From Marivita sp. GX14005 (GTDB taxonomy: Bacteria; Pseudomonadota; Alphaproteobacteria; Rhodobacterales; Rhodobacteraceae), in NCBI RefSeq assembly GCF_023370775.1, contig NZ_JAMCCQ010000003.1, positions 1 to 64,000 of the forward strand: a DNA stretch of 64,000 bases. The letters run 5' to 3'. The notes beneath the pieces are model-generated. The model was not told the origin of the DNA and made no database searches. It saw nothing but the letters and a program-made list of their open reading frames with translations. Of the stretch, positions 19,702 through 45,163 are shown one piece after another. The position numbers and the translations under genes were made by a program. Position 1 is the first letter of the stretch; each line of letters begins with the position of its first letter.

Positions 19702-19754
19702 GATGCCCTTTCCTCGACCGGCTGGCTGAATGCGACCTCGAAAGGGGTCAAGTC

Positions 19755-23756: not shown

Positions 23757-23964
23757 TCCGGCCTGCCTTTGCTCGCCCTTAAGGTTCAGAAGTTTGGACT
23801 ATTTGGTGGCGCGCACAAAATATAACGGCCTTACACACGCTATTGCATACAATTACCCGAGTTTCTCCGTGCGTCAACGCGCCCTACCAGATGCATCACC
23901 GGATAACGCTCATCGACCGAGACAAGGCATCAAAACACATTCGTAGCGGCATCCGAAGCCGTAT

Positions 23965-29092: not shown

Positions 29093-29095
29093 CGG

Positions 29096-30616
29096 ATGCG
29101 GCCCAATCTTCGGTGGCATAGCGACTTGAACGTAGTCCACGGATACGTCCTTAGGCCCGGATCGGAACCGCTGGGCGGCACGATACCGCTTCTTGGTGCG
29201 CGCGACCTGAAAAAGCGGCTCCGCGATCTGGTGTCTACCTGTACGGTCCCAGAACCTTTCATGCACTTGACCTTGTCACTTCCTGAGAGTCGTCGGGCCG
29301 CAGGAAAGGTCTGGCTGAGACTGGTCGAGACCGCGCTCCGCCTCGTTGGCTGCGAACCCGATGCAATGCCCTGGGTTGCCGCTCGGCACAAAGACAGCTC
29401 TTGCGATCACGTTCATTGCATCGTTGTGCTTCGGGAGTTCTCAGGGCGCGAGGTGGTTATTTCGGGAAATCGGGTAAAGAGCGAATCGACCCACAAAGAG
29501 CTTTGCCGAATGACTGGCTTGGTGCTGCCGAATTTCTTCATTCCCGAGTTTGGACCGCGGCTGTTGCCAATTACGCCCACACGGAATCTGAACAGCGTCC
29601 GTAAAAAGCAACTCCATTCGGATCTTGAGAAGGTGTTTCTGCTCCATCAACCCGAAAGCCTTAGGGACCTGAATCTGCATCTTTCCAAGCGTCCGGGCAG
29701 GTATCACGGGTTCCCTGAAAATACATCGACAGGGCATCCGTCCATCGTCTGGCGCAGTATGGAATATGAGTGCTTTACCGGGACACTCGGGCTTGCGTGG
29801 AAACCGCGGCTTTTGAGGAAGCGATTTGATCTGGGTAAGACGCTGCGCGCCGTCCGCAATGAAATCGAGCTCGCCAAGCTGGCGACCATCTTTGAAACCC
29901 CAACCATGGAGAAGATCTTTGCCAAAACACTCGACGTCGTCCGAACCTGTGCAGCTTCAAAACGAAGCGGCCATGATTTTGGACCAGCTTTTGCAAACAG
30001 ATCGGAACGTGACCTTTCTGCACCCTCTGATGGATTTGCTTTCCCGGCCTTCGGATCAAAAGGAAACGCTGGGCGAACGGCTGGCGGCACTGCTGGCGGA
30101 CCTGATCCAGACGCTGAGCAATTTCCAGTCGGAGCAGGCCACGCTGAGCGATGCGCAGGTGGGTCTGACAGAGGCGGTAAACAATGCGAACGAGCGATCC
30201 GAGGAGAGATTGATGCAGCTGGAAACGAAGCTGACCAAAATGATCGAAGCGGAGATCGAATCGAGCAGGGAACGTTACGATCGAATGGAGAAGAAGATCG
30301 ACCGAATGCTCACACTGCTGAGCCTGCCCCTCGACTGACCTTTGCTGCACTCCTGGCCCGCGTCTGCACCGCTGCGGCAAGCTGTGCGGCGGGCTGGCGC
30401 GTGAAACCGATGCGCGGCAACCGTGGCGTCGCAATCATTTTCGTTGACAAAAGCGCGGCGAAAGTCGGTCCTGACATAATGAGCATAGCCGCCGACGGAA
30501 AAGAAGTCAGGCGTTTCGAAGCGGCCTACCAACCCTACGTCGTGAAGCCAGTGTTAGCGGATCCAGCCGAAGGAGTGGGAAATGCTCCGGATCAGAATGA
30601 TGGGCCCGGCTTCTAA
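29096..30616 (+). CDS. Relaxase/mobilization nuclease (MobA/VirD2-like), C-terminal part doubtful
   Basis: The N-terminal ~300 residues match a mobilization relaxase: a probable nucleophile Y17 (GYVLRPG), HLTLSLPE, and the metal motif H98-K-D100 ... H105-V-H107 (CDHVHCIVV). It would nick oriT and carry the strand in transfer. After about 29,980 this frame gives low-complexity, shadow-like sequence, while another frame (to 30338) encodes a convincing coiled coil; the last ~70 residues (from about 30410) again look plausible. Either the gene is frameshifted or a second gene overlaps it. The true 3' end is therefore uncertain. Confidence 0.65.
   Translation: MRPNLRWHSDLNVVHGYVLRPGSEPLGGTIPLLGARDLKKRLRDLVSTCTVPEPFMHLTLSLPESRRAAGKVWLRLVETALRLVGCEPDAMPWVAARHKDSSCDHVHCIVVLREFSGREVVISGNRVKSESTHKELCRMTGLVLPNFFIPEFGPRLLPITPTRNLNSVRKKQLHSDLEKVFLLHQPESLRDLNLHLSKRPGRYHGFPENTSTGHPSIVWRSMEYECFTGTLGLAWKPRLLRKRFDLGKTLRAVRNEIELAKLATIFETPTMEKIFAKTLDVVRTCAASKRSGHDFGPAFANRSERDLSAPSDGFAFPAFGSKGNAGRTAGGTAGGPDPDAEQFPVGAGHAERCAGGSDRGGKQCERAIRGEIDAAGNEADQNDRSGDRIEQGTLRSNGEEDRPNAHTAEPAPRLTFAALLARVCTAAASCAAGWRVKPMRGNRGVAIIFVDKSAAKVGPDIMSIAADGKEVRRFEAAYQPYVVKPVLADPAEGVGNAPDQNDGPGF
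29973..30338 (+). CDS. Coiled-coil protein overlapping the relaxase frame
   Basis: Up to 121 residues (ATG at 29973; a GTG at 29949 is also possible) with a long predicted coiled coil rich in Glu, Leu, Lys and Arg (LMQLETKLTKMIEAEIESS...YDRMEKKIDRM). It is in a different frame from the relaxase start, and its composition is more protein-like than the relaxase frame over the same bases. It may be a separate small protein or the original C-terminus of the relaxase displaced by a frameshift. No strong ribosome site is visible. Confidence 0.5.
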   Translation: MILDQLLQTDRNVTFLHPLMDLLSRPSDQKETLGERLAALLADLIQTLSNFQSEQATLSDAQVGLTEAVNNANERSEERLMQLETKLTKMIEAEIESSRERYDRMEKKIDRMLTLLSLPLD

Positions 30617-30734
30617 CCGGGCCGCAAGAAGGGTTTTCAGGTGCCGTCAGGTATCACTTGGTCAACTCTGCGATTTCGCACGCCGAACTGAGTTGAGTCG
30701 CGCAACGCTCGCACCTCTGAAGTATTGGCGCCGG

Positions 30735-31547
30735 TCACAGGTCCAATTTCGAGGGGGCGTCATCACCCGTCCCGGTGATCGCATCAGTGATCTGTTTCGC
30801 GGCTTCGATCCTGTCCCTATCACGGAGCGCGTAATCCGTAATCGTGAACCGGATGAGTGTGTGCGTTCCCATCTGTTTGAAAGCGACCTCGTATACGACT
30901 GAACAGCCCGTCACGACGGTTTCAGGGTCTACGATTTGGAACTGAGCGGGTCCGCCGCAATTCTCCGGCATTGCAGTTGTCTCGCCCGCGGCGATCTTTT
31001 CCCCATCAACGCTGTGAATCCAGATCGCCCGGTCAAACCCCAGGTCTTTATCCATGAAGGTGGGTTCACCGAACTCTTGGATCACTTGTTTTCGCAGGGC
31101 GTCCAAGCTGGGTGCTTCGGGCAGCGGAATGCCCATGCTACGCGAGACCGATACTGCGACGTTTCCGGTCGCGTTGGTTGACAGGAATCCTTGCATGAAC
31201 TCAAATTTGGTCTCGTTTTGATACAGATAGGGGTTGTCGTAACCATGCGTCTGGTAACCATAAGTCACATTGAGCCCGATCTGGGTTCCGTTCATTGTGA
31301 CCGTCATGATGCCTTCTTGCGGATACAGAGGGATACCGCGCGCTGACGCTGCCGCCTCGAGTTCGTCGTAGCTGGCTCCCGGTGCAAGATCAAGGATACG
31401 ATACGGGTGGTCAGTGACGATATCCGCGGGATCGACTACGGGCGTCAGGTCAAACGACAAGGCAGGCGACGCGGCTAACACGGCGCAAGCCATCAGTGCA
31501 ACGCGGTAGAAGGTGGACATTGGGATAGGGGCGGATCTCCGGTTCAT
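30735..31547 (-). CDS. Exported protein of unknown function
   Basis: 270 residues with a signal peptide after a short basic lead (ALMACAVLAASPALSF). The mature part shows no recognised catalytic motif; segments such as GIMTVTMNGTQIGLNVTYGYQT suggest a beta-rich periplasmic fold. The start at 31547 is supported by AGGAA eight bases upstream; an internal Met at 31520 is an alternative. It is last in a run of four co-directional envelope genes (33059 to 30735). Function unknown. Confidence 0.6.
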   Translation of the reverse strand: MNRRSAPIPMSTFYRVALMACAVLAASPALSFDLTPVVDPADIVTDHPYRILDLAPGASYDELEAAASARGIPLYPQEGIMTVTMNGTQIGLNVTYGYQTHGYDNPYLYQNETKFEFMQGFLSTNATGNVAVSVSRSMGIPLPEAPSLDALRKQVIQEFGEPTFMDKDLGFDRAIWIHSVDGEKIAAGETTAMPENCGGPAQFQIVDPETVVTGCSVVYEVAFKQMGTHTLIRFTITDYALRDRDRIEAAKQITDAITGTGDDAPSKLDL

Positions 31548-31641
31548 GTGTCGTGTTCCTTTTTTGAACCATGTTTGAATGATGAAGCGCGGACGATCGC
31601 TGCCGCGGGAATGGTCCGCACCGATAAAAGACCGCGATCAA

Positions 31642-32226
31642 TTACGGTTGGGTCAGCAGCTGAAAGATTGCCACAGCGCGGTCGTATTTGAGATTGCGGG
31701 CGAGGGTTATCACCTTGGAGCCATACCGGATTCTGACCCGATACCTACGCTTCGCCGAAGACGACGATATCGCGGCGGACGCGCCTAGCATGGCCGAAGT
31801 AGTCGCATTCGCCAGCGTTCCCATGACCGCCATCGACGCCCCAGAAACGCCGGATCCGCCAACGATGAAGCCCGGCTGAGCCGTGTAGGAGACGTCCTTG
31901 TCCATCGGGTTGTCGATCAACACCTCCGAGACGCGCGGCAGGTCGTAGGCCGCGCCGTCCTTGATGATCGAACCCTGCGTCAACGTGAAAGTTTGGATCT
32001 GATACATTTTGTAGATGACAAACCCAATTCCGGCAAACAGGAGAATTGGAAGGAACCAGTAAGATACCGGCAGGATGGAAAGCGACACCGCTAAAATGAT
32101 CACCATCGATATCGGCAGGATGACATATGCAGACCATGGCAAGCCATCTCCTTTGAAAGAGATGTGTCGTTTGTCCCCGTCGTCGGTGATCGAGTAACCT
32201 AGATCGAAATTTGCCTGCTTTGCCAT
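31642..32226 (-). CDS. Membrane protein of unknown function
   Basis: 194 residues: an N-terminal soluble stretch, two hydrophobic helices (about 31-52 and 53-70), then a soluble C-terminus with a PH-like or DUF6232-like feel (TLTQGSIIKDGAAYDLPRVSEVLID) interrupted by a small-residue-rich segment (GVSGASMAVMGTLANATTSAMLG). It lies between exported-protein genes of the same orientation. No function can be assigned. Confidence 0.6.
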   Translation of the reverse strand: MAKQANFDLGYSITDDGDKRHISFKGDGLPWSAYVILPISMVIILAVSLSILPVSYWFLPILLFAGIGFVIYKMYQIQTFTLTQGSIIKDGAAYDLPRVSEVLIDNPMDKDVSYTAQPGFIVGGSGVSGASMAVMGTLANATTSAMLGASAAISSSSAKRRYRVRIRYGSKVITLARNLKYDRAVAIFQLLTQP

Positions 32227-32365
32227 ACGTTGATCCTGTGCAGAGTTGGTCGCCGCGCATCGGAAATGCGGGTCGTTGCACCCGTCGGGGTGCCAGTGGT
32301 GTTCGTTATGGATGGAGCGACCGGCGTGAGACGGAGGGGGTCTACACTACCTCAGCCGGTCCGCG

Positions 32366-32677
32366 TCAGCCAGGCACACGCCTGCATTCGAACGTGTCAC
32401 CGCTCGCCGGGCTATGCCACGTCAGGCTATTTTTCGTCACATCGAACATGGCGAAACGATAGCCATCCGTCATTTCGGCTCCCCAAGCATCTTCGGCGAT
32501 CTTCTCGATACTTGCGACCGCAACCTTTTTTCCACTGACGACATAGGTTGATCCATCCAGACTGAACTGCATGATCTCGCAATCCCAGTTCCCGTAAACA
32601 GGCGGGGCTGTTTCGGCATGTCCATTCGTGGGGGCGAAGAATGTCGCGGTGGCGATGACGATCAGGCTGTGTTTCAT
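32366..32677 (-). CDS. Small exported protein of unknown function
   Basis: 103 residues with a signal peptide (MKHSLIVIATATFFAPTNGHA). The mature part is short and beta-rich with two Cys (WDCEIMQ; FECRRVPG) that could form a disulfide in the periplasm. It is adjacent to another small secreted protein gene of similar plan (32718-33059). Not recognised. Confidence 0.6.
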   Translation of the reverse strand: MKHSLIVIATATFFAPTNGHAETAPPVYGNWDCEIMQFSLDGSTYVVSGKKVAVASIEKIAEDAWGAEMTDGYRFAMFDVTKNSLTWHSPASGDTFECRRVPG

Positions 32678-32717
32678 TTCTGGCGCCCTTCAAACGGAAA
32701 AGATGTCGAATATTTTT

Positions 32718-33059
32718 TTACCAAGCGCATAGCTTGGCGGTTGTATTGGACCAGCACGCACCGTCCCGGGTGAGCGTTCCGAGCGGATCATGCGCGCGGT
32801 TTTCGCCGATCTCCCCATTCCAATACGCAGATGCCTTGCCGTCGCCTTCAACGTAAAGGTAGGCAAAGTGCATTCCGTTCGCGCCGGTAATCTGAAAACT
32901 GCCGTCGTTGCTCGAAAGCGTGTGAAATTCGCAAGACCCATCTATGAAGGTTTTACCCTGAACTTCGAGCAAGCATTTGGCTGGCCGCGCTTGCGCCGTG
33001 GCCCCGATCGCGATGCTCAAGGTGGATGCGACAAAGAACAGCGACAGCCTGTTTTTCAC
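32718..33059 (-). CDS. Small exported protein of unknown function
   Basis: 113 residues with a clear signal peptide (LFFVASTLSIAIGATAQA). The mature ~90 residues contain four Cys (KCLLE, GSCEFH, GACWSN, KLCAW), consistent with two disulfides in a periplasmic or secreted protein. It would be the first gene of the four-gene envelope group. Not recognised. Confidence 0.6.
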   Translation of the reverse strand: MKNRLSLFFVASTLSIAIGATAQARPAKCLLEVQGKTFIDGSCEFHTLSSNDGSFQITGANGMHFAYLYVEGDGKASAYWNGEIGENRAHDPLGTLTRDGACWSNTTAKLCAW

Positions 33060-33372
33060 AATGAAACCCTCCGGTTAAATCAAACGACACAAGTCAGGTG
33101 TCGCACAACCCAAGCACGACGGGAATACCCGAAAAAGACGGTATCGAGCGATTGCACAAGGTTAGTCGGCGTGGCAAGTTCGGATTGCGGGTAGCATATT
33201 CTGCTCGTGGGGCGTGGAATCCCCTTGATGCGTAGCTCGGTCGACTTATCGGCCGGGTGACCATTGCGTATGTCCAAGCGAAAGCCAAAGGCAATGGTGC
33301 CTCGGGCTACGCACGAGGATTCCAACATCCGGCTTTGACCGGAGCGCCTCTTCAACCTGAGGAGTCGTGGCG
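33060..33372. other. Non-coding divergent intergenic region (313 bp)
   Basis: No credible gene on either strand. It separates the minus-strand envelope-protein group from the plus-strand LuxR-type gene and should hold both promoters. No clear -35/-10 pair or operator palindrome was identified. Confidence 0.5.
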
Positions 33373-33753
33373 ATGTTCGATAGTTTTCAAGTGCAGCTTT
33401 GTGTGACGTCCCGTGATGCTGGACCCGATGCTGACCGGACGCCCTCTTACGATAGGTCAATCGTCAGCTTCAGCACTCCTTTTAAGTCTGACGCGGCACC
33501 CGCTGTTCCGAGCCTCGGGACTACTCAGACATGCAACAACCTTGCTCCGATGGCACGGTCGCTTTCCCGACGAGAGGCCGAGGTGCTGCTCTGGGCCGCG
33601 CACGGTAAGTCGGCCTGGGAAACCGCGCAGCTTTTGGGGCTGCGCGAAGCGACGGTCAAATTCTATGTTCGAAAAGCGTGCGTGCGCCTCGGTGTGAAGA
33701 ACAAGACGCACGCTGTTGCCATCGCGCTAACGCACAATCTCATCGAGATGTGA
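33373..33753 (+). CDS. Small LuxR-type helix-turn-helix protein
   Basis: About 126 residues. The C-terminal ~65 residues form a LuxR/FixJ helix-turn-helix (LSRREAEVLLWAAHGKSAWETAQLLGL ... TVKFYVRKACVRLGVKNKTHAV). The N-terminal ~60 residues are neither a receiver nor an autoinducer-binding domain. GAGGAG just upstream fits ATG 33373 better than GTG 33367. It resembles the short orphan LuxR regulators of mobile elements and may control the divergent envelope genes or transfer functions. Confidence 0.75.
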   Translation: MFDSFQVQLCVTSRDAGPDADRTPSYDRSIVSFSTPFKSDAAPAVPSLGTTQTCNNLAPMARSLSRREAEVLLWAAHGKSAWETAQLLGLREATVKFYVRKACVRLGVKNKTHAVAIALTHNLIEM

Positions 33754-33784
33754 CCTCGATCAGCAGGAGCGTTGTGGCCCAAGA

Positions 33785-33976
33785 TCAAGGTTCATAGGAG
33801 GTCTCCCGCTTGAGAAACTCGGCCAGAATGCGCCGAATAACCTCTGGACGGGTTGGTAGATCTTCCAGCGTGCGACGATACTCATCGACGGCCGCGATCA
33901 TCGCTGGCTGCATGCGGATCATGACCGGTTCTGTGTCCGTCGGCGGACGGCCCATCTTCTTCTTTTCTGCAGGCAT
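33785..33976 (-). CDS. Small ribbon-helix-helix-like protein
   Basis: 63 residues, basic N-terminus (MPAEKKKMGRPPTD), then PVMIRMQPAMIAAVDEYRRTLEDLPTRPEVIRRILAEFL, which fits a ribbon-helix-helix DNA-binding fold (MetJ/Arc class). It may be a transcriptional repressor or an antitoxin; no toxin partner is recognised in the adjacent frames. It is divergent from the 34099 gene. Confidence 0.65.
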   Translation of the reverse strand: MPAEKKKMGRPPTDTEPVMIRMQPAMIAAVDEYRRTLEDLPTRPEVIRRILAEFLKRETSYEP

Positions 33977-34098
33977 ACGATTTTCTCCGAAAGCTGCTTG
34001 ACTATCGGATTACATAGTTACATGATACGCAGACCAAGGCAAGAGCAGCAACTCTCGCCTTGGTCCTGACCAAGGCCAATCTTTCACGGAGATCAACA

Positions 34099-34635
34099 AT
34101 GGCTGTTTTGATGCCTATCATGCCGCCCGCGGCATTTGAAGTGACTCGCACGTCCGAATTCGGCTGGCACTTTTGTAGCCACCTGATGCCCGCCCTTGCG
34201 GCCTACATCGTCGCGGAGCGGGATCTGGATGACGTTGCTGGCGCATATGACCCGGCGTATCTGCAGTATGAGCAGGAGGCAGATAACGCCCGCGCAACAC
34301 TCACAGACGCGATTGTCGAAAATCTTTTGGTGCCGATCGCGGTCCCGACTGATCGTCCCATGCGCCGTATGGTGATGCTGATCGATGCACTTGTCCGCGC
34401 GGAAGACGTCGGCACGTTTAAGGGCTTGCATCGCAGGATGCACTTTTCTTTTTCTGAGTTGTTCCAATCACACGCGGCAGGTCCTTCCGCTCAAGCGGTA
34501 AATTCTGTCTTGGAAGATGCTCGCCGCATGGTCGACGCACTGGTTGCCCTGCCGATTTTCGAACGATGGTTGGATGAGGAACTGAGCATCTACCACGCGT
34601 CCACTTTCAATTTGCTTGGCACGGAAAGCGTCTAA
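34099..34635 (+). CDS. Hypothetical protein
   Basis: 178 residues, mostly helical by appearance, no signal peptide or membrane segment. GGAGAT about 8 bases before ATG 34099 supports this start over the Met at 34060. Segments (MLIDALVRAEDVGTFKGLHRRMHFSF) do not match a family I can name. It is the first plus-strand gene after the ribbon-helix-helix gene and may be co-transcribed with the GIY-YIG-type gene 133 bp downstream. Confidence 0.5.
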   Translation: MAVLMPIMPPAAFEVTRTSEFGWHFCSHLMPALAAYIVAERDLDDVAGAYDPAYLQYEQEADNARATLTDAIVENLLVPIAVPTDRPMRRMVMLIDALVRAEDVGTFKGLHRRMHFSFSELFQSHAAGPSAQAVNSVLEDARRMVDALVALPIFERWLDEELSIYHASTFNLLGTESV

Positions 34636-34768
34636 GCGCCGCTTCCGATCTTCTTCCGCAGCCCGCCGGCCTGTGCCGTCAGCGCGCCGCACGTCCTGCC
34701 CCTGCAGCCGGCCACGCGCCGGATGCCACATTCGCATATTCTTTTTCCTACCCAACGGAGGCCAGCCC

Positions 34769-35713
34769 ATGACCGCGTCCAACACAAACACCATGACCAT
34801 CAACGGAATTTCCTTTCCGATCCATACCGGCACGATCAAACCGGACTGGATCGCGGAGGCTGCCGGGAAAGGGTTTGATATCGTCACCCGCGTTGCCGAT
34901 CGCTTCCACCTGGCCTTGCGGTGCCGTGTGTGCGGCGGCATGAGCAAGGTCAAGCTCTTCACACTTCGGACGGCGGCGCGACCGCTGTGCTCTCATTGTC
35001 TGACGAAAGAATGGGTTGCCGACGCACAGGCGGCGGGGCTTGAGTTCCTGCGGCGCGACCCCGCGAACCGCCACTACGGAATCTATCTGGCCGAATGCGG
35101 GCACGAATTGTCGCGCCAGTTTGCCCTTGTGAAGCAAGCGGCCGAGGGGTCGAAGAGAATCCGATGCGGCACGTGCCAGTCCGCGATCGAACATGCCGAG
35201 GCGTGCGCCAGGGGGTGGACGCTCGTTGGCCCCGACCCGGCCGGAAACCCCAACTATAGGGCTTACCGCCATGAAGCATGCGGCCATGTGCAGCGGATGG
35301 CGCGGGTAAATTTACAATCCGGGCGGCACTCATGCGGAGGATGCGGCGTGGATTGGCCCGCGGCGCCGAGCCACCTCTATGCCATGATGTTCACTGTCGC
35401 GAATGGCCGCGAGCTGGTAAAAATTGGCTACTCGAACGACCCTGAAAAACGCCTGCGTTACCATCTCCAGCGCGACCGCGAGATGCCGTGCGAGATCCTG
35501 CGCACCGTCGCTGTGCCCACTGGGCAGGAGGCGATCCGCATCGAAAAGGGCCTGCACGCAAAGCTGCGGCGTGAGCACTCGGAATGCGTCGTCGCCCCGG
35601 AAGCGTATCGGGGACAGATCCGTGTTCAGTCCGAGATCTATGATGGCAGCCTCACCAACATCATCCTCGCTGAACTCGCCCAGATCGAAGCGCAGCTTTC
35701 TGAAGCCGCCTGA
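34769..35713 (+). CDS. Zn-ribbon protein with GIY-YIG-type (T5orf172/Mug113-like) domain
   Basis: 314 residues. The N-terminal half has several CxxC pairs (CRVC, CSHC, CGTC, CGGC) consistent with zinc-binding ribbons. The C-terminal ~100 residues (HLYAMMFTVANGRELVKIGYSNDPEKRLRYHL) match the T5orf172/Mug113 branch of the GIY-YIG nuclease superfamily. It could bind and nick DNA. ATG 34769 is preceded by GGAGG; the open frame upstream is not protein-like. It precedes the FtsH-like gene by 78 bp. Confidence 0.75.
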   Translation: MTASNTNTMTINGISFPIHTGTIKPDWIAEAAGKGFDIVTRVADRFHLALRCRVCGGMSKVKLFTLRTAARPLCSHCLTKEWVADAQAAGLEFLRRDPANRHYGIYLAECGHELSRQFALVKQAAEGSKRIRCGTCQSAIEHAEACARGWTLVGPDPAGNPNYRAYRHEACGHVQRMARVNLQSGRHSCGGCGVDWPAAPSHLYAMMFTVANGRELVKIGYSNDPEKRLRYHLQRDREMPCEILRTVAVPTGQEAIRIEKGLHAKLRREHSECVVAPEAYRGQIRVQSEIYDGSLTNIILAELAQIEAQLSEAA

Positions 35714-35791
35714 TTTTCCAGCGTAGCCATTCTTCTGCCCCCGCCCAGTTAGGTGAGGGCCACCGATCCCGTTTCTTAGGAGTGCCCGATC

Positions 35792-37920
35792 ATGGTCAAA
35801 ACGAAACACATCAACACCGCGTGGCAGGCATACGCATATAGCTTGATCGCGCGCCTGCGGCAGCAACATGGCGTCCTTCCTGCCGGAGGGCATGAGGAAT
35901 CGGAACTCGACCACCTCTTCAAAAGGTTCCATACGTCGGACGAGACGGCAGACGACGGACCCCTTGTCCCGTCGCGCTACGTTCCGGCACGCGAGCTCCT
36001 GATGGTCATCCGCTTCGCGGCGACCATCGGCTCGATCGGTGCGGGACGCGTTATGCGCCAATGCGGCGCGCTGACCGTGATCAACGATGTTCCGCGCGAC
36101 GAAATCGTTCTGCTCAAGGATGTGCTCAAGATCTGCTTCCCTCGCGATCAACTGGTGCTGGTTGCACCTGAGATTTCCGAGGGCGCCGTCTCGAAACATG
36201 CGCATGACCGCTTCGTTCGGCTTATCGCCGAAAGCCTTGACAGGATCGAACCCGTTTTGATCCTCCAGCCTGAAGGGTTGAGCCTACCGAGGCATCTGAA
36301 GGTGACCGCCGTGACGACCTTTCCGATGGCACGTATCACGCAAGATGTCGTCTTGACCTATCTTTGCTCAGGTCATCTGGCGGACGAGATGGCAAGCCAA
36401 CGCGACCCCAAGACGCTGCTGCCCGAGGATCCGGCACTCCGACGCTTGAGCGCTATAGAACTCTGCGTTGCGCTGCGCGCCCCTGATCTGGCGACAGCCC
36501 TGCAGCAGCTAGGTGAACTGGCTCAGCCCGACCCATACACGCTAGGACCGAGACTGGAGGACATGGAGGGCGACAGTCCTGCTTTGGCTGCCGCCCGTCG
36601 ACTGGTGGCTGACCTCCAACTCTGGCGCGCGGGCACAGCTGGATGGCATGAACTCAGCCGCTCGGTATTGCTGTATGGCCCGCCGGGGACAGGAAAGACA
36701 CATCTGGCGCGCGCGATGGGAAACAGTGCCGGACTCTCGGTGGTCACTGCCAGCTTTGGTGAGTGGCAAGCCTGTGGCCATCTCGGGGACATGCTGCGGG
36801 CGATGCGGACCAGCTTTTCCCAAGCGCGCGCGCAAGCGCCTTGTCTCCTCGTCATCGATGAGATTGACGCGGTCGGATCGCGGTCGGACGATGATCGGCA
36901 CGCGTCGAATTACCGGATCCAGGTCATCAACTGTTTCTTGGCCGAGATGGATTCGATCGCTCGGCAGGAGGGCGTGATCGTGGTCGGCACGGCCAACCAC
37001 ATCGAACGAATGGATCCTGCCGTTGTTTCTTGGCCGAGATGGATTCGATCGCTCGGCAGGAGGGCGTGATCGTGGTCGGCACGGCCAACCACATCGAACG
37101 AATGGATCCTGCCGTCTTGCGCGCCGGGCGGATGGATTTGAAGGTGCAGATGCCGATGCCGGATGCGGAGTCTCTTCTGTTTATCCTGCGCGCGCATTTG
37201 CGAGATGACATCGCAGACCCTGACTTGCGCGACCTGTCGCACCTCGCTGTCGGCAACAGCGCTGCAGATATCGATGCGGCGATCCGAGCGGCTCGGTCCG
37301 ACGCGCGCCATTCGCGCAAACTTCTGAGCATTCCTCTGCTGCAAAAGCATCTAGGGATCTCGACGGCATCTGCCGACGAAAGCGTTATCTATCGGGTGGC
37401 GGTCCATGAAGCGGGCCACGCCGTCGCTGCGGCTGCTCTGAGTCTCGGCGTAATCACGAGCATGCAGGTCACTGCTGGCGGGGGCATGATCGCTCGGCAA
37501 CCAGCGCCGCATCATTGCTTGATCGGCGATGTCGACGCCGAAATCGCCTATTCTCTCGCCGGCCGCGCGGCCGAACGCCTTGTCTTCGGCGAGGTATCTG
37601 CCGGGGCGGGAGGGCATAAAGATTCTGATCTCGCGAAAGCGACAAGAGCCGCCCTCGAGATCGAGGCTACCTATGGCCTGGGTTTGCTGGGTCCCGTCTG
37701 GCACTCCGATCCGCATCAGATGTATCTGGCAACGCCATCTCTTCGAGATCGTGTGCGACAGCGCATCGAGCGCGCGGAAAAACGTGCTGCCGGTGTCCTC
37801 TCAGGTCACAGGCAGGCCCTTGAACGACTTGCAAATGAATTGGCCGCAAGACGGTCATTGCGCACCGCCGATATCCGTCGATTTTTGGAAGGCGCGAGTC
37901 CCGATCGACAGCACAACTGA
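35792..37920 (+). pseudogene. FtsH-like AAA+ ATPase/M41 protease, frameshifted by a 92-bp tandem duplication
   Basis: Removing one copy of the 92-bp repeat at 36932-37115 restores a single 678-residue frame. The restored protein has an N-terminal ~260-residue domain without membrane helices, an AAA+ domain (Walker A GPPGTGKTH, Walker B LLVIDEIDAVG) and an M41-like metalloprotease domain (HEAGHAV and a downstream Asp in KDSDLAKAT). Unlike FtsH it lacks the N-terminal membrane anchor. As it stands, the first part stops at 37069 after the Walker B region; a second open frame from a TTG at 37030 to 37920 carries the sensor and protease parts. The loss could be reversible by recombination between the copies. 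Confidence 0.85.
36932..37115. repeat. Exact 2 x 92-bp tandem duplication
   Basis: 36932-37023 and 37024-37115 are identical over 92 bp; the bases flanking the unit differ. Because 92 is not a multiple of 3 it shifts the reading frame of the FtsH-like gene. The unit encodes the stretch after Walker B (CFLAEMDSIARQEG ... ERMDPAV). Confidence 0.97.
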
Positions 37921-38568
37921 AGCAACGCTCCCATCCGATGGACCCGAGTCCGTCTGACAGCGAACAACCTCCATTCAGGAGACTTGCAGTTCCGGCACGG
38001 GAGGTTCAACAATCATGCGACGTTCGGGGGCGTCTCTCTCACCCAGAACGTCACACAAAACGTAACACAATCGGTCGCTCCAGCATCACCCAACGACGAA
38101 AAGTGCATATATTATCAATAGCTTGCATAAACGCAGGCAATTTTGCTCCGATCCCTACCGCCGGAGCCAGAAATTCCTAGCATTTCAGCTGGGTTGACGA
38201 CCTCGGGGGGCTTTTCGGGGTCTCTGGTGTCCGATGAGGGCTCGGGTCCTGTCTCGTATTCGGATGAAGGGCGCCCACCTTTGCGTTGTAGGTGATCTAT
38301 GTCCTTCAGCGATGCCCGCCTGGCGTCGCGTTTCGGCGGAAACAGGCCGGTTTGACCGCGTTCGGTGCGCGGGCGCACGCAGGGCGTGCGAATCGTGGTA
38401 TAGTAAGGTTCTGTTATTTTGCAGATTTACCAGTACCTCCTTGTTTTCAAATTATTTCAAATCTGGAAGTCATCTGGATCCTGTTAACCTTTCGAGTCAC
38501 TTTTCGACTCCTGACGACCCGACATCGCGATCCGTGGTGACTTCGATTCAATTCGAAGGATTGTCATC
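37921..38568. other. Non-coding region across the right island end and upstream of the peroxidase operon
   Basis: No credible gene in 648 bp. It holds the right arm-type repeats (38050-38059, 38110-38126), the attR core (38149-38169) and, beyond the island, an AT-rich stretch with a direct repeat tttcaaat at 38445-38452 and 38455-38462, spaced one helical turn. That repeat may be an operator or UP-like element for the peroxidase operon. GAAGGA at 38555-38560 is the ribosome site for the 38569 gene. Confidence 0.55.
38149..38169. other. attR core
   Basis: Exact 21-bp copy of the tRNA-Asn 3' end (19585-19605), with no other tRNA sequence around it. It marks the right boundary of the island. 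Confidence 0.92.
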
Positions 38569-40386
38569 ATGCTTTTTACCCTGGGACACGGACAAAAAAT
38601 CATACTGTCGAACGATGCGGCGCCCGGTGGGGGGCTTGGCGGGCTTGCGCCTGCGGTCGAGGCCGATGCGGTGTCTTATGCGCAGGCCACCGGCGCTGCG
38701 CCTTCGTCAGCGCCTTCCGGCGCGGCGGCGATGCCGCAGGCAGGCGGGATGCCGGGCGGACCGTTCGGCTACTTCTTTCCCGATGCGGATGCGGCCCCGA
38801 GCGATGCCGATATGGTCGCCCGGCTCGATGCGCTCGCCGATGCGATGGTCGAGGCGCCGAATGATCCGGTCGATGCCGATAGCGCGATTGCGCCGGTCTT
38901 TACCTATCTGGGGCAGTTCATCGATCATGACATCACCGCCAATACCGATCGCAAGGCGGATCAGTCGGTCATCGTGCCGCCCGATGGCGACACGCTCGAC
39001 CCGCTGCCGCGCGATCATGTCACCTCGGCGCTGGTCAATCTGCGCAAAGGCTCGCTCGGGCTGGATAGCCTTTATGGTGACGGGCCGGATGACGGGCCGG
39101 CGGCGACCAAGCTGAAGAACGCCCTCCGCTCGCCGGGGTTCGAGGGGATGATGCGGCTCGGTGAGCCGTCGGATGTACCGCCCGAGGTCGGCGTGCGCCC
39201 CGATCTTCCGGCCGACGATGCCTGCGACCTGCTGCGGATCGGCACGCTTCTGGACGAAGGCAGCCTGCAGGAAAGCGACATTCTCGGCACGCCGCTGGAG
39301 CCCGCGTTTGCAACGAATGGCGCGATCAATCCGGCCGCTGCCGTCATCGGCGATGCGCGCAACGACGAGAACCTGCTGGTCGCGCAGCTTCACGCGGCCT
39401 TCCTGCGCTTTCACAACCGAATTGTCGTCTGGCTGCAGGGCCAGGACGATGCGCCGACGGGCGATGCACTTTTCGAAAAGGCCCGCGAATTGACGCGCTG
39501 GCATTATCAATGGCTGGTGCTGAACGTTTTTCTACACAAGATCTGCGATGCGTCCGTTGTCTCTGAGGTCAAGGCGAACGAGGCCAAGGCTTACAAGGCG
39601 TTCCGCGACCGGGTGATGAAAGGCGCGGGCGGCTATGCGAAGGAGGATCACCTGCCGCTGCCGCTCGAATTTTCGGTGGCGGCGTTCCGTTTCGGCCACT
39701 CGATGGTGCGCGGGGCCTATGATCACAACCGCAATTTCGGGCGCGGCGACAACCCGATCACCGAGCGCGCGTCCTTCGACGATCTCTTCCGCTTCACGGG
39801 CGGCGGCGGGATGCGCGGATTGCCGACGCTTCCGATCAACTGGATCATCGAATGGGACCGTTTCGTGCATGACCAGCCGAAGGAGGCCGATCACGTCGCG
39901 CGCAAGATCGACACCCAACTCGCGCCGCCGCTGGGCAACATGCTCAAGCAAGCCGACGGCGTGTTCAAACATCTGGCCAAGCGTAACCTGCGGCGCGGGC
40001 ATCGGCTCAACATCCCGTCTGCGCAGGCCTGCATCGAAGGCTTCAACGGCGCGGGCTATGGCAAGATCACGCCGCTCAGCAAGGAAGAGCTGACCTCCGG
40101 CCATACCGGGCAGGCCGTTGCGGATGGGAACTTTGCCTATGCGACACCGCTGTGGTTCTACATCCTGCGCGAGGCCGAGGTTCAGACGGGCGGCGCGCAT
40201 CTGGGCCAGCTGGGCAGCCGCATCGTCGCGGAAACACTGGTCGGCCTGGCGGTCTGCGATCCGTCCTCCTGCTGGCACCAGTCCGGCTCGGATGACGGGC
40301 GCTGGCATCCGCAGGACGGCGCGCAGCCCGAAGGTGAGGTCGTGGACGACATGCCGGCGCTGATGCGCGCGGTTCTGTGGCTCTGA
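38569..40386 (+). CDS. Animal-type haem peroxidase (cyclooxygenase/peroxidasin superfamily)
   Basis: 605 residues. Key positions of the superfamily are visible: Q116 and distal H120 in GQFIDHDIT, catalytic-type R264 and E267 in GDARNDENLL, FLRFHNRI, and proximal H377 in AAFRFGHSM. By family it oxidises small substrates or halides with peroxide using haem. No signal peptide or RTX/secretion repeats are seen, so it is probably cytosolic, unlike many peroxidases of this family. A Gly/Ala-rich linker (about 20-65) precedes the core. GAAGGA (38555-38560) supports the start. It is first in a four-gene operon with 8-15 bp gaps. Confidence 0.9.
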   Translation: MLFTLGHGQKIILSNDAAPGGGLGGLAPAVEADAVSYAQATGAAPSSAPSGAAAMPQAGGMPGGPFGYFFPDADAAPSDADMVARLDALADAMVEAPNDPVDADSAIAPVFTYLGQFIDHDITANTDRKADQSVIVPPDGDTLDPLPRDHVTSALVNLRKGSLGLDSLYGDGPDDGPAATKLKNALRSPGFEGMMRLGEPSDVPPEVGVRPDLPADDACDLLRIGTLLDEGSLQESDILGTPLEPAFATNGAINPAAAVIGDARNDENLLVAQLHAAFLRFHNRIVVWLQGQDDAPTGDALFEKARELTRWHYQWLVLNVFLHKICDASVVSEVKANEAKAYKAFRDRVMKGAGGYAKEDHLPLPLEFSVAAFRFGHSMVRGAYDHNRNFGRGDNPITERASFDDLFRFTGGGGMRGLPTLPINWIIEWDRFVHDQPKEADHVARKIDTQLAPPLGNMLKQADGVFKHLAKRNLRRGHRLNIPSAQACIEGFNGAGYGKITPLSKEELTSGHTGQAVADGNFAYATPLWFYILREAEVQTGGAHLGQLGSRIVAETLVGLAVCDPSSCWHQSGSDDGRWHPQDGAQPEGEVVDDMPALMRAVLWL

Positions 40387-40401
40387 GCGGGCGCGCGCGT
40401 G

Positions 40402-42645
40402 ATGGCAGACGAACGTCCCCGCCCCGCCCCGATTCCGGTGGACGAATTGCGCCGGATGCTTTTCGACATCGATGTGCCCGAGGAAGACTGCGCCGCCTAT
40501 ATGCTGGTCGATCCGGCCCATAGCCGCGCCTTCGATCCGGCGGTGCGGGTCAACCCGGCGCTTTTGCAACCGCCCGCGGTGGGCAGTGGGCTCGATACCG
40601 CGCTGCAGGGCGCCATTGCGCTGGGCGGGCTGAACGGGATCTCCCGGTGGCGGCGCAACCGCCGCTACCGGTCGCGCATTGCCGGCGGCTGGAACGGACT
40701 GAAGCTGGTCTCGGAGGGCGATAGCTGGTTTCAGTTCCCTTTCCTGCTGACGGATGTGATCGACCATCTGTCCGAAGAGCACGCGATCCTCAGCCTCGGC
40801 GCGGCGGGCGACACGCTGGACGATCTCATCGCGCAGGACGAGGTGGTGGCCGCTGTCATGGCCGAAGCCCCAGACGCGGTGCTCTTGAGCGGCGGCGGCA
40901 ACGATCTGGTCGGCGGCGGCAATCTCGCCGCCATCGTCCGGCCCTTCGATCCCGCGCTGGATGCGGCGGGTCATATCACTCCTGCGCTGACGGCCGTGCT
41001 GTCGGCGGTGATCGGCCATGTGCGCTCCATTGCGACGGCGGTTTCGGCGGCAGCACCGACCACGCCGGTCCTGATCCATACCTATGACCATGCGATCCCC
41101 GACAACGGCAAATGGCTGGGTCGGCCCTTGGCGTCGCAGGGTATCGTCGATCGCGGCTTGCAGCGCGAGATCGTGCGCATCCTCATCGACCGTTGGGCAG
41201 AGGCGCTCGCGGCGCTGGCCCGCGAGCCGGGGCTTGCGGGAACGCTGCATGTCGTCGATTGTCGCGGCACCGTGCCGGAGGGTGGCTGGCATGACGAATT
41301 GCACCCTGAAAGCGGCCCCTATGGGACTGTCGCGGCAAAATTCCAGAGCGTGATCCAGGCTGTGACAGCCCCGCAGCCGGTGGCGGCGCTCGGCGCGCTT
41401 GGCACAGGCCGTGCCGTATCCCGGCGCGATCCCTTGCCTGCCACGATCCAGGATCTTGCAGACCGCTTCGACGACAGCGTTCTTCTGTCCGAGATCGGCA
41501 GGCGCGCATCGCTCGAACGCATCCAGCCGGCAGGCGTGATGATGGCGCCGCGGGATCCGGGCGGTGTGCCGTCCTCCAGTCTCGAAGGCGGCTATCCGGC
41601 GCTGTCGCAGCTCGGACAGCGCATCCTTGCGCGGGCGCACAGGGAGCTGCACAGGCTGCTTTGCGGCGATGACGAGGCCGACAAGGCCGACCGCCAGAGC
41701 CTGCGCGACGCCTTCAACATCGGCCAAGGCGCGACTGCGGCGGCGCTTGCGGGGCTTCTGGCGGGCGGCCCGCTTGGCCTGTCGGCCTTCGTTGCCGCGC
41801 CCGTGGCCGCACTCATCCTGCGCCGCTTCCTCGCGCCGAGCTGGGAGGAAACCTGCAAGGCCTGGGGCGACATGCTGGACACGGGCGGCTCCGTTCAGGC
41901 CAGCCTCGACACCGCGCAACGCGGGCTCGCGGCGGCGCGCCGGAACCCCGACAGGTTCTGCATTGCCTTCAAGAAAGCGCCCTCTGCCGCCGATGCCGAA
42001 GCGATGGCGAATTCCAAGGCGGCGGTTCTGGAAAGCGCGAAATGGCCGTTCAATTCGGTCATCCGCATCCGCTTTCTCGAAGGGTCGGACCATCTGAAGG
42101 AGCGCGTGCAGCATCACGCGCGCGCATGGATCGCCGAGGATATGGCCGCGCTCACCTTCGAGTTCATCGACAGCGGCGATGCCGATATCCGCATCGCCTT
42201 CATACCGGGTGCGGGATCGTGGTCTCTGCTTGGCACAGATTGCAGGAATGAAACCGATCAGAGCAAGCCGACAATGAATTTCGGCTGGCTCGACGACAGT
42301 TCTTCCGAAGAGGAGATCCGCGAGGTCGTGCTGCATGAATTCGGCCATGCGCTGGGGCTCATCCATGAACATCAGAACCCCGATGGCGGCATCGAATGGG
42401 ACGAAGCGGCGGTCGCGGCCGATCTGACCGGCCCGCCCAACTTCTGGGACAAGGACACGATCCGCCGCAACGTGCTCGACCATTACGATCCCGGCAAGCT
42501 GATCGCCACGCAGATCGACCCGCTGTCGATCATGATGTATCCGATCCCGGACAAATGGACGAAGGGCGATTTCCAGACCAGCCTGAACAGCCAGTTGAGC
42601 CCGACCGACCGTGCCCTGATCCGGCAGGTCTATCCCTCGATCTGA
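40402..42645 (+). CDS. SGNH hydrolase-metzincin protease fusion
   Basis: 747 residues with two enzyme domains. SGNH/GDSL-like hydrolase (about 100-320): S108 in GDSW, N167 in GGGND, and D298/H301 in HDELHP. A central helical region contains a hydrophobic stretch (about 440-478) that could insert in a membrane. The C-terminal metzincin (about 545-747) has H645-E646-x-x-H649-x-x-G652-x-x-H655 and a Met-turn SIMMYP, closest in feel to astacin/matrixin-like zinc proteases. No signal peptide. A GTG one codon upstream (40399) is an alternative start. Known family chemistry: ester hydrolysis plus zinc proteolysis; the role of the fusion is unknown. Confidence 0.82.
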   Translation: MADERPRPAPIPVDELRRMLFDIDVPEEDCAAYMLVDPAHSRAFDPAVRVNPALLQPPAVGSGLDTALQGAIALGGLNGISRWRRNRRYRSRIAGGWNGLKLVSEGDSWFQFPFLLTDVIDHLSEEHAILSLGAAGDTLDDLIAQDEVVAAVMAEAPDAVLLSGGGNDLVGGGNLAAIVRPFDPALDAAGHITPALTAVLSAVIGHVRSIATAVSAAAPTTPVLIHTYDHAIPDNGKWLGRPLASQGIVDRGLQREIVRILIDRWAEALAALAREPGLAGTLHVVDCRGTVPEGGWHDELHPESGPYGTVAAKFQSVIQAVTAPQPVAALGALGTGRAVSRRDPLPATIQDLADRFDDSVLLSEIGRRASLERIQPAGVMMAPRDPGGVPSSSLEGGYPALSQLGQRILARAHRELHRLLCGDDEADKADRQSLRDAFNIGQGATAAALAGLLAGGPLGLSAFVAAPVAALILRRFLAPSWEETCKAWGDMLDTGGSVQASLDTAQRGLAAARRNPDRFCIAFKKAPSAADAEAMANSKAAVLESAKWPFNSVIRIRFLEGSDHLKERVQHHARAWIAEDMAALTFEFIDSGDADIRIAFIPGAGSWSLLGTDCRNETDQSKPTMNFGWLDDSSSEEEIREVVLHEFGHALGLIHEHQNPDGGIEWDEAAVAADLTGPPNFWDKDTIRRNVLDHYDPGKLIATQIDPLSIMMYPIPDKWTKGDFQTSLNSQLSPTDRALIRQVYPSI

Positions 42646-42654
42646 GGCGGCGAA

Positions 42655-43695
42655 ATGGCGCGAAACGACATGGCCTTCGTGATCGGGATCGCCCGATACC
42701 CGACATTCGGCGGCAACGCCTCGGACGCCGCGCGCGATCTACAAGGCCCGGTGAACGATGCCGACGCCTTCGTCGATTGGCTCAAGGCGCCCGATGGCGG
42801 CGATGTGCCGGAGGCGCATATCTTTGCCGTCACCTCCGATCATTTCCCAGCGGGCGCGCCCGTCGGTCCGGTGGTCCGCGACGTGACGGACAAGCTCGAC
42901 GCGCTCAGAACGGCGGCGAAGGCGCCGCCCCGCAAGCGGCGTCTTTATATCTATACCAGCGGCCACGGCTTCGGGCGGCGGCGGCTCGAAGGCGGGCTAT
43001 ACCTCGCCGATGCAGCTCCGGCGAACCTGTCGAATTTCTTTGTGTCCGACTATTTCAACTGGTTTCTCGATGCCGCGTATTTCGACGAATGTATCCTGTT
43101 CAGCGATGCCTGCATGGATCAGGGCCGTCTTGCCGCGCCCGCCCAGCCGCATTGGCGGCGCGAGATCGCTCCCGGTCGCGGCACGAGCGCGATGGGTGCC
43201 TATGCCGCGCGCTTCGCGGGCCGCGCCGTCGAAGGCAGGATGGCCAACGGGCTGTTCCACGGCGCCTTCTCCTATGCGCTGCGAATGGGCCTGCTCGGCG
43301 CGGCGGCGGTTGTCGATCCGCAGGGCAAGCGCAAAGTGACCGGCGACAGCCTGCGCGACTACCTCATCGCCACGATGCAGAAATTGATGACCGAGGCCGA
43401 ACGGCAGGATCCGCGCATCTCGACCGATCCCGATTTCGGCCCGTTCGATCCGGTCACGCTGGTTGAGGACCCGCCGCCATTCGAGCGCCCGGTGACCGTT
43501 CTTTTGCCCGGCGCCGTCGCGGATGCGACGCTCAATCTGGAAAACGCGGCGTTCGACAATCTCGGTCCGGTCACGGCAGCGAATGGCTCGCTCGCGCTGT
43601 CCCTCCGCCCTGGCCTTTACGCTCTGACAAGCTCCGGCGGCTGGGAAGGTGCGTTCGAATTTACAGGTGTCGAGCAGGAGATCAGTCTCAGATGA
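42655..43695 (+). CDS. Caspase-like (peptidase C14) protein
   Basis: 346 residues. The p20-like fold begins at once (DMAFVIGIARYP), with the catalytic dyad H104 (YTSGHGFG) and C153 (LFSDACMD), matching bacterial metacaspase/orthocaspase-like proteases that cut after basic or acidic residues. The C-terminal ~80 residues (265-346) form a beta-rich domain ending RPGLYALTSSGGWEGAFEF, similar in plan to segments of the next protein. It is probably cytosolic. It follows the fusion gene by 9 bp. Bacterial caspases are known as regulated death or defence effectors; that role here is inferred. Confidence 0.85.
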   Translation: MARNDMAFVIGIARYPTFGGNASDAARDLQGPVNDADAFVDWLKAPDGGDVPEAHIFAVTSDHFPAGAPVGPVVRDVTDKLDALRTAAKAPPRKRRLYIYTSGHGFGRRRLEGGLYLADAAPANLSNFFVSDYFNWFLDAAYFDECILFSDACMDQGRLAAPAQPHWRREIAPGRGTSAMGAYAARFAGRAVEGRMANGLFHGAFSYALRMGLLGAAAVVDPQGKRKVTGDSLRDYLIATMQKLMTEAERQDPRISTDPDFGPFDPVTLVEDPPPFERPVTVLLPGAVADATLNLENAAFDNLGPVTAANGSLALSLRPGLYALTSSGGWEGAFEFTGVEQEISLR

Positions 43696-43708
43696 AGGAG
43701 GTCGCGCC

Positions 43709-45163
43709 ATGCCGAGGTTGACCGTCGAGGCGGCAGACGAAACCGCCGAGATCTTCGTCGTTGCATCGCATTTCGCGCTGGCCGAACGTGGGGTTCGGCG
43801 GCTCGAACGGGAGTTGCCTGCCGGGATCTACAAGGTCCGCGCGGTGTCGGCGCGCAGCGAATGGCAGAAAGTCATCGCCCTGCGCGGCGATACCGATATC
43901 TCGATACCGCCCATCGAATTCGGTTCTGCCGCGCCGCTTGCACTGACCAACCGGACCCATGAGACGCATATGGCCGCCGCCGAAGACGCGGCGCCTCCCC
44001 CGCCCCCCGCGCCGGAAATCGCCGAAGCGGCCCTGCGCCGGCCCGGCGCGCGCCCGGCCGCCGAACACACCGCGTCGTTCAACTTCATGGCCCGCTGGTG
44101 GACCCCCTATTATGACGTCGATCCCAAGGGGTTCGCCGATCCGTCCATCGGAGCCAGCCTTCGAAGCGGTGGAGGACGGCGGCTGTTGAACCTCTGGCGA
44201 CAGGACGAGGCGCAAGGCACGGCCACCAATGCCGGCCCGCGTATATCGGGCGAAGCGTCGTGGTTCGCGGGCGATCTGGACGAGGATCGTTTTTCCGGCG
44301 TGTCGTTCAACGCCGCCGCGGGGCTGTATACGCTGAGCCTGTCCGATGGCGACGGCACGATCGAGCAGACCGTGACCCTGCTTCCGGGATGGCGCACGCA
44401 TGTCTTCGCGCTCTACGAGCCGGATACCGACGCGTTCGGCCACCCGCGCGAGGATGGCGGCAAGCGGCTGGTCGATCTGTCCATCCATATCGCGCGCGGC
44501 AAGCTCGAGATGGGCAGCGAGGTCGCGCGGATCACCGATGCCGCGCGGTTCGCGCTGGCCGATGAGCGCTCCACCGCCACGCAGGAGCTTTTGGGTATCG
44601 TGCGCGGGAAGTCGGATGCGCCGATGCTCGGGCTCTACGGGGCACATCTGATGCAGCTTCTGAAAGACAAGACGTCAACGGCAAGCGTCGCGCGCTCTGT
44701 CGACTACGATCCGGGGCTTTTCGAAGAGGTCGCGCAGAACACCGCCGATTTGTTCGGCCGGAACCATCCCGATATCGTCGCGCTGCTCGGGCCGGAGCCC
44801 GGGGCGAAGGCGCAGGTGGTGCCGCCGATGCTCTGGCGGGGCTGGACCGCGCTTCTGGAGCGGTCGCTGGACGCGCCGGCGCTCGTGTCACCGCCGATGT
44901 GGCGGCGCACCGCGCTGCGCTCGCACAGCCGGCCGTTCTTTGCCTGGCGCACGCCGCAATATGCCGGAACCGCGACGATGATGCGCGATATCGAACTGAC
45001 CCGTTCGGTGTTGCAATTTGCAGGCGAGACAGCGGCACTGGAGCCCGATTTCGCCGGGCTGCTCGACGGCACCGTGCCGGATACCCGCCGCCGAGAATTT
45101 ACCCGGCGTTGCATCACCCGGTTCGAGGCGCCGCGCTCCGTCATCGACATGGTTCTGGGCTAA
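43709..45163 (+). CDS. Unrecognised protein with repeated beta-sandwich-like segments, partner of the caspase operon
   Basis: 484 residues. An N-terminal beta-rich domain (1-80, LPAGIYKVRAV) resembles the caspase C-terminal domain; a Pro-rich linker (PPPPPAP, about 98) follows; a second beta-rich segment contains AAGLYTLSLSDGDG. The C-terminal ~200 residues are mainly helical (LGLYGAHLMQLL, FEEVAQNTADLFGRNHPDIVALLG). No catalytic motif is seen. AAGGAG before ATG 43709 supports the start. It ends the operon, overlapping the convergent otsA by 4 bp. A regulator, inhibitor or scaffold for the caspase is possible. Confidence 0.6.
   Translation: MPRLTVEAADETAEIFVVASHFALAERGVRRLERELPAGIYKVRAVSARSEWQKVIALRGDTDISIPPIEFGSAAPLALTNRTHETHMAAAEDAAPPPPPAPEIAEAALRRPGARPAAEHTASFNFMARWWTPYYDVDPKGFADPSIGASLRSGGGRRLLNLWRQDEAQGTATNAGPRISGEASWFAGDLDEDRFSGVSFNAAAGLYTLSLSDGDGTIEQTVTLLPGWRTHVFALYEPDTDAFGHPREDGGKRLVDLSIHIARGKLEMGSEVARITDAARFALADERSTATQELLGIVRGKSDAPMLGLYGAHLMQLLKDKTSTASVARSVDYDPGLFEEVAQNTADLFGRNHPDIVALLGPEPGAKAQVVPPMLWRGWTALLERSLDAPALVSPPMWRRTALRSHSRPFFAWRTPQYAGTATMMRDIELTRSVLQFAGETAALEPDFAGLLDGTVPDTRRREFTRRCITRFEAPRSVIDMVLG

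Follow-up and report, generated by a model that had tools for sequence, protein, structure and literature searches.

The window analysed here is a 64,000-nt stretch of Marivita sp. GX14005 (contig NZ_JAMCCQ010000003.1, positions 1 to 64,000), in which four co-directional open reading frames (ORFs) occupy positions 38569-45163 of the plus strand, separated by gaps of 12, 9 and 13 bp. The four-gene operon is real, and its spacing agrees with the 9-15 bp of the original prediction, which was made from the sequence alone and had named a haem peroxidase, a hydrolase/zinc protease, a caspase and a protein of unknown fold. Pfam, PADLOC, phmmer and motif inspection lead to the same four identities:

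38569..40386, plus strand: animal-type, myeloperoxidase (MPO)-like haem peroxidase, 605 amino acids (aa), accessory member (PF03098, myeloperoxidase alignment, motifs)
40399..42645, plus strand: SGNH hydrolase-metzincin fusion (protein 2), 748 aa, GTG start (Pfam, phmmer, alignments, motifs)
42655..43695, plus strand: caspase-like protease of metacaspase/paracaspase type, 346 aa, with a C-terminal beta domain (Pfam, PADLOC, profiles)
43709..45163, plus strand: partner protein D, 484 aa, two repeats and a helical region (profile work, caspase adjacency)

Judged by sequence, genes 2-4 encode a metzincin with a cysteine-bearing pro-segment, a metacaspase/paracaspase-type caspase and a near-constant partner, D. 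We consider it on balance probable that these three genes form a proteolytic self-destruct or defence module in which the caspase would free the latent metzincin. The window caspase was aligned with five relatives (four from plasmids, one from a genome) and species genomes were scanned: 155 stretches matched the single pattern, of which 114 encode a relative; the 80 best were retained (20 of these loci are shorter than 20 kb), so the set leans to the window's own caspase subfamily. Profiles of D were built from the window protein and its first relatives and then iterated. The original prediction had staked itself on homologues not being rarely adjacent, and they are not: D lies beside or is fused to the caspase in 78 of the 80 loci, the other two being a caspase-D fusion missed by the distance rule (L054) and a locus cut by the contig end (L077). 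Directly upstream of the caspase stands a metzincin in 27 loci and an alpha/beta-hydrolase-type protein in 34; the remaining 19 have neither. The adjacency of metzincin, caspase and D is more than chance, and the caspase-D core recurs in many phyla.

Of five upstream hydrolase-type proteins compared with Pfam, two are DUF900 (L039, L057), one is Abhydrolase_6 below cut-off (L046) and two have no match (L075, L093). Of the 37 ORFs picked up with the single L039 protein as a second probe, 26 have a loose GHSxG-type motif. The hydrolase-type hidden Markov model picked up proteins of L136-L139 as well, two of them Peptidase_C1 by Pfam; these loci were left out of the hydrolase count. A second caspase or a caspase-subtilase follows D in L064 and L074, both among the 19 loci with neither effector, and in L047.

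On the caspase tree (85 rows; a quick method with the Shimodaira-Hasegawa-like approximate likelihood ratio test, SH-aLRT, no bootstrap, and long branches flagged by the program), 29 of the 30 metzincin-linked caspases fall in one starred clade with an SH-aLRT of 97, the thirtieth, from L061, lying elsewhere. Metzincin linkage changes state only twice on this tree, against 24.9 changes in shuffles; members of the clade come from Pseudomonadota, Actinomycetota and Acidobacteriota. The type of caspase and that of effector thus appear mostly to have been inherited together, as a protease and its substrate should be.

Protein 2 consists of an SGNH domain (residues ~10-345), a linker with a hydrophobic stretch (~346-515) and a myroilysin-like metzincin domain (~516-747). 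Pfam gives GDSL/SGNH at 9.9e-09 and Matrixin exactly at cut-off (24 bits), and phmmer matches myroilysin at 9e-48. The SGNH motifs are GDSW at 107, GGGND at 165 and DELHP at 299; those of the metzincin are HEFGHALGLIHEH at 646 and SIMMYP, which supply both the HExxHxxGxxHE zinc motif and the Met-turn of the myroilysin-like M12A metzincins. The zinc-binding core is invariant in 24 aligned metzincin rows, comprising the window and 23 loci. Over residues 411-487 the linker matches the PADLOC candidate PDC-M35B weakly (3.3e-05), as does the corresponding region in L168. The original prediction had found no signal peptides, and hydropathy agrees: there is no N-terminal hydrophobic segment in the window proteins and no clear N-terminal hydrophobic signal in the 24 metzincin rows (best value 0.99 over 14 residues, with script-picked starts), so that the secretion signal looked for in myroilysin-like metzincins was not found by this measure.

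The pro-segment is where a latency mechanism may reside. Myroilysin is described as latent through a cysteine switch (PMC9848320). All 24 aligned metzincins have Cys at 521; at 540, 16 of them carry K and the other 8 R, and at 541 there are 19 A, three G, one I and one M; the shorter metzincins start only a few to ~25 residues ahead of this cysteine (script-picked starts). The shortest PDB chain of myroilysin, 5zjk, which is taken from its length and a reference title to be the mature enzyme, has its residue 2 opposite 542 of protein 2 and its first residue opposite 541, and the longer chains 5gwd and 5czw have an Arg opposite K540. We therefore predict that C521 is the switch cysteine, with a putative zinc contact, and K540-A541 the activation bond; in phmmer C521 does not align column for column with the myroilysin cysteine. 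Compared with myroilysin (M12A; 5gwd, 5czw, 5zjk), the window protein shares the metzincin sequence, the cysteine-bearing pro-segment and a basic residue at the same bond; it differs in having no signal peptide by hydropathy, in its fusion to SGNH and in the pairing of its gene with a caspase.

The caspase scores 20.7 bits with Pfam Peptidase_C14, just below the 21.4 cut-off, and matches PADLOC 'caspase' at 1.1e-07; with the EACC1-associated caspase model NF047832 it reaches 17.2 bits against a cut-off of 140. Its motifs are SGHG at 102 and DAC at 151. SGHG and DxC are present in 81 of 81 caspases, and all 23 caspases aligned keep the H104/C153 dyad. The family profile matches plant metacaspases (metacaspase-4) and MALT1. 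Three acidic residues, D35, D151 and E193, are likewise invariant in 23 of 23 caspases and stand, by hand count from the alignment, opposite residues 41, 138 and 176 of MALT1 chain 3v4o, which lie a constant 324 below Asp365, Asp462 and Glu500. These three are reported as responsible for the P1 specificity of MALT1, which is for arginine (PMC4357240). Since the acidic trio aligns with the MALT1 P1 determinants, the window caspase is predicted to be of the Arg/Lys type with a basic P1, which would fit K540, and the caspase may be what cuts the K540-A541 bond here.

Partner D matched no Pfam or NCBIfam family in the window protein, and among 24 relatives no full-length model of either database was found, only scattered weak helix-turn-helix (HTH) and sorting-domain matches; assignment of D to a known family on the strength of these was rejected. 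The HTH matches occur in some relatives only (best Pfam E 1.5e-4), by eye in the C-terminal part of the alignment. By profile comparison, the C-terminal domain of the caspase is related to the N-terminal domain of D (hhalign 96%, 4.6e-9), which is in turn related to a second repeat within D (94%, 1.8e-7). The best PDB matches of the D profile are gingipain chains, weakly (E 0.0037), in a region taken to be their immunoglobulin (Ig)-like C-terminal domain. Some D proteins carry enzymes themselves, namely trypsin and nuclease in Azospirillum L050 (Pfam) and Rhizobium gallicum L011, and trypsin and phospholipase D (PLD) in Mesorhizobium L010, the latter two by eye and from record annotation.

The theme put forward by the original prediction, a regulated death or conflict response in which proteases are activated, remains the likeliest one. 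The trigger, cleavage, cytosolic activity and outcome that we infer for genes 2-4 would run as follows. D, with its repeats resembling the caspase C-terminal domain, would hold the caspase and sense or relay a trigger, upon which caspase and D would cleave protein 2 on the C-terminal side of K540, a site that separates the switch cysteine from the catalytic domain. The cut would free an active metzincin in the cytosol and part it from the SGNH-linker half, which might attack lipids or other ester substrates at the membrane. The resulting proteome damage would lead to cell death or arrest, most plausibly halting a phage or other invader. In the sister loci an alpha/beta hydrolase would take the place of the metzincin as the enzyme that the caspase switches on, and the peroxidase would be an added effector or amplifier from a shared enzyme pool around SGNH-headed proteins.

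That the combination matches no known system, as the original prediction held, is too strong in view of the Canu plan (PMC12799240) and of caspase-alpha/beta-hydrolase pairs (PMC7159879). In Canu, a caspase with its partner activates a pro-nuclease for phage defence (PMC12799240). The two are alike in that a single operon encodes a latent effector, a partner and a caspase that ends in a beta domain (Ig-like in CanA, putatively so here); in a caspase-family His-Cys dyad, present in the window caspase; and in MALT1, to which CanA is likened (PMC12799240) and with which the window caspase aligns. D may be regulatory as CanB may be for CanA, a comparison of role and not of sequence. In contrast, the window effector is a metzincin zymogen fused to SGNH where that of Canu is a metallo-beta-lactamase (MBL)-fold pro-nuclease, and a basic P1 is predicted here where glycines are described at the Canu sites. 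The module would thus work like Canu without being a member of it, because the pro-nuclease is missing: no beta-lactamase-fold family was matched by the four window proteins in Pfam or NCBIfam.

Caspase-alpha/beta-hydrolase pairs are described in the VMAP ternary and GAP1-N1 conflict systems (Kaur et al. 2020, PMC7159879), a pairing also seen in the 34 sister loci. The metzincin version with D is not among the pairings described in the accessible part of that work. MoxR, vWA and VMAP were not matched in the four window proteins (Pfam, NCBIfam), and among the three ORFs scanned to the left of the operon, the only neighbours so covered, those with AAA domains look FtsH-like. A literature search that did not extend to most subscription papers found no metzincin-caspase-D system.

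A crude MBL motif scan of the 80 loci returned 13 ORFs. Nine of these contain SAHWDH and resemble M28 peptidases (the one from L067 was scanned); that of L040 is also M28. L046 (7129-8187, Hahella) and L057 (7323-8285, Pseudomonas mandelii) each have a true MBL-fold gene just upstream of, and co-directional with, the hydrolase gene, and L084 has one on the opposite strand. The L046 and L057 genes are a possible bridge to Canu-type pro-nucleases.

The peroxidase matches Pfam PF03098, the animal haem peroxidase family, at 1e-18 and aligns with myeloperoxidase over two stretches, one distal and weak (4.1 bits) and one of 18.3 bits. Its motifs are GQFIDHD at 115, RNDE at 264 and FRFGHS at 373; alignment and motifs together account for the distal His, the Arg, the ester-forming Asp and Glu and the proximal His of PF03098, whose functional roles we presume to be those of the family. 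The original prediction treated all four genes as one unit; genes 2-4 do belong together, and the peroxidase falls outside this core, its profile having no match across the 80 caspase loci. Strong peroxidase relatives occur in 17 of 292 genomes (E up to 5.9e-81), and any match in 74. An SGNH gene lies within 2.5 kb of the peroxidase in seven of the 17, at 10 kb in one, and no SGNH match was found in the other nine; an SGNH match of any kind occurs in 24 of the 292 genomes, both scans being taken to cover the same set. The seven genomes represent only three layouts:

Layout 1: the window itself
Layout 2: peroxidase, C1-like protein, SGNH (G190, G294)
Layout 3: SGNH-trypsin, peroxidase, C1-type protein (four genomes)

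This adjacency is beyond chance, less strongly so than that of metzincin, caspase and D. Being missing from the caspase loci yet near SGNH genes elsewhere, the peroxidase is an accessory gene from a partner pool around SGNH-headed proteins. It may act as an added effector or as an oxidant key for the cysteine switch, or it may be a bystander.

The SGNH head itself is modular. In Rhodobacterales genomes and rhizobial plasmids (partly on record annotation, Pfam and our own seeds) it is fused to caspase, trypsin, trypsin-EEP, trypsin-nuclease, subtilase, amidase or caspase-M15; fusion to a metzincin was seen in the window, L015, L016 and L017. L015 and L016 are the two systems closest to that of the window, and the peroxidase is absent beside both. 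Upstream of their SGNH-metzincin gene lies instead a ~340-aa protein, membrane-spanning by eye (L015 6223-7281, L016 6254-7312), whose L015 member has no Pfam match and whose family is absent from the window; it also occurs at L176 (3711-4856) and L177 (4218-5351). In seven Rhodobacterales genomes (L170-L173, L175-L177) an SGNH-headed protein of ~1135-1165 aa adjoins a protein of 725-808 aa. The former is SGNH-caspase-M15 by Pfam in L170, the only one run, and the latter has no Pfam match there; its family is also found beside a peroxidase in L133 and on a Palleronia plasmid, where it is annotated as a C1 family peptidase. On rhizobial plasmids (L003, L004, L005, L098, L100, L204), hydrolase clusters surround SGNH-headed proteins and include, by record annotation, trypsin, C1, chitosanase, L,D-transpeptidase, amidase, subtilase, PLD, EEP and nuclease; these clusters look like a family of enzyme arsenals.

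Left of the operon lies an island bounded by the tRNA-Asn gene (19531-19605), whose final 21 bp are repeated:

38149..38169, plus strand: 21-bp repeat of the tRNA-Asn 3′ end, marking where the island stops on the right, outside the operon (repeat match)

The island (19531-38169) contains a ResIII helicase alongside an N6/N4 DNA methylase, the two being probably a type III restriction-modification pair. It also encodes a relaxase and a TOPRIM-bearing OLD-type ATPase, and it looks like a mobilisable defence island. A DUF6538 protein, under the Pfam cut-off, adjoins the tRNA-Asn gene. At the other end, ORFs at 35792-37069 (AAA domain) and 37030-37920 (AAA and M41, FtsH-like) overlap in different frames and look like a split or shifted FtsH-like gene. 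The original prediction placed the operon beside a tRNA island and took this to reflect acquisition there. The island is real; acquisition of the operon with it is not supported, as the right repeat lies 400 bp to the left of the operon start, although D was not found in the 16 other same-genus genomes searched. GC content at 39-45 kb is 0.63-0.69, host-like. The gene to the right of the operon is matched in 10 of 17 same-genus genomes, the window's own included, with only one other close match. D occurs in one of the 101 nearest genomes, in two of 390 from the order and in one of 385 from the class, each count including the genome of the window itself, so the system is patchy.

Several observations weigh against a caspase that frees the metzincin for self-destruction or defence. 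Seven control metzincins (genome matches L181-L187), with no caspase or D match within ~1.5 kb, have a basic residue near 540 where it is readable, and five of the seven genomes have the cysteine, which is missing in L185 and L186. K540 as proof of caspase cutting was therefore rejected; the basic residue marks an activation site of the wider family and need not be one for a caspase. The stretch around D35 aligns with MALT1 at only 3.4 bits, the PADLOC caspase match is generic only, the sensor role of D as a regulatory partner is a guess, and the predicted Canu cut sites hold conserved glycines in their cut loops (PMC12799240). The operon lies outside the island repeat, and one scan of viral contigs with the caspase alignment, which did not cover the phage collection, gave 12 pattern matches and no caspase relative. 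Speaking for the module are the protease-effector fusions of SGNH-headed relatives (trypsin-nuclease in L178, caspase-M15 in L170) and the neighbouring island with its ResIII helicase, N6/N4 DNA methylase and OLD-type ATPase.

Of the alternatives, that the peroxidase is a chance bystander upstream of a system made of genes 2-4 only is the one we hold a real possibility, if doubtful: the nearest systems, L015 and L016, have the membrane-spanning-looking protein at that place, and the top-scoring peroxidase relative (G372, 54%) has no SGNH match in its genome, whereas the closeness of SGNH in seven of 17 strong-relative genomes, against 24 of 292 for any SGNH, speaks for a link, one weakened by the fact that the seven show only three layouts. 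The enzymes could also be a digestive or predatory set, stored without signal peptides and acting outside after lysis or dedicated secretion on prey, hosts or neighbours. Myroilysin is an extracellular enzyme, and in relatives from rhizobial plasmids and Rhodobacterales SGNH heads or their neighbours go together with amidase, chitosanase, L,D-transpeptidase, M15, S8, C1, PLD and nucleases. We find this unlikely given the lack of signal peptides by hydropathy, the recurrence of the caspase-D core in many phyla, and the fact that no secretion genes were noticed beside the operon among the part of the neighbours scanned.

Distinctly unlikely, in our view, is a metzincin opened by the peroxidase, whose oxidant (hypohalous acid or another, made from peroxide) would oxidise C521 and leave the caspase as a second or downstream route. 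The cysteine is invariant, the peroxidase keeps MPO-type motifs, and its gene and that of protein 2 are 12 bp apart; MPO/H2O2/Cl- is described as activating proMMP9, opened by oxidation of the switch cysteine (PMC9405048). Neutrophil myeloperoxidase and proMMP thus resemble the window pair in joining an MPO-type peroxidase to a cysteine-switch metalloprotease (PMC9405048), and differ in that the window enzymes are gene neighbours in one bacterium and presumed cytosolic, their oxidant activation being hypothetical. The 27 caspase loci with an upstream metzincin are all among those without a peroxidase, however, and elsewhere the peroxidase accompanies SGNH-trypsin, SGNH-caspase or C1-type proteins, with haloperoxidase activity here only hypothetical. 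More speculative still, and improbable, is a two-key death switch in which an Arg/Lys caspase and D cut the pro-segment while the MPO-like peroxidase oxidises the switch cysteine, so that an oxidative burst and proteolysis would jointly release the metzincin and a membrane-directed SGNH lipase within the cell. Ordinary regulated proteolysis in stress or quality control, with no cell death, is the reading to which we give least credence. Some metacaspases have housekeeping roles and the GC content of the operon is host-like; the spread of D is patchy, and a latent protease with further hydrolases would be costly for housekeeping.

Animal caspases act largely by cutting other proteins, zymogens included, and to our knowledge few bacterial caspases have a defined zymogen partner (Canu, 2025). 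For the module of genes 2-4, the locus names a caspase, its probable substrate, the predicted bond and the putative specificity residues, for a pair that appears co-inherited across three phyla, which makes the proposal directly testable. The executioner would be a protease rather than a nuclease, and D represents a widespread family for which 24 members yielded no full-length Pfam or NCBIfam model. Should the two-key switch prove true, it would be a bacterial counterpart both of apoptosis-type caspase activation and of the neutrophil MPO-MMP axis, drawn from a combinatorial zymogen pool common to Rhodobacterales and rhizobia.

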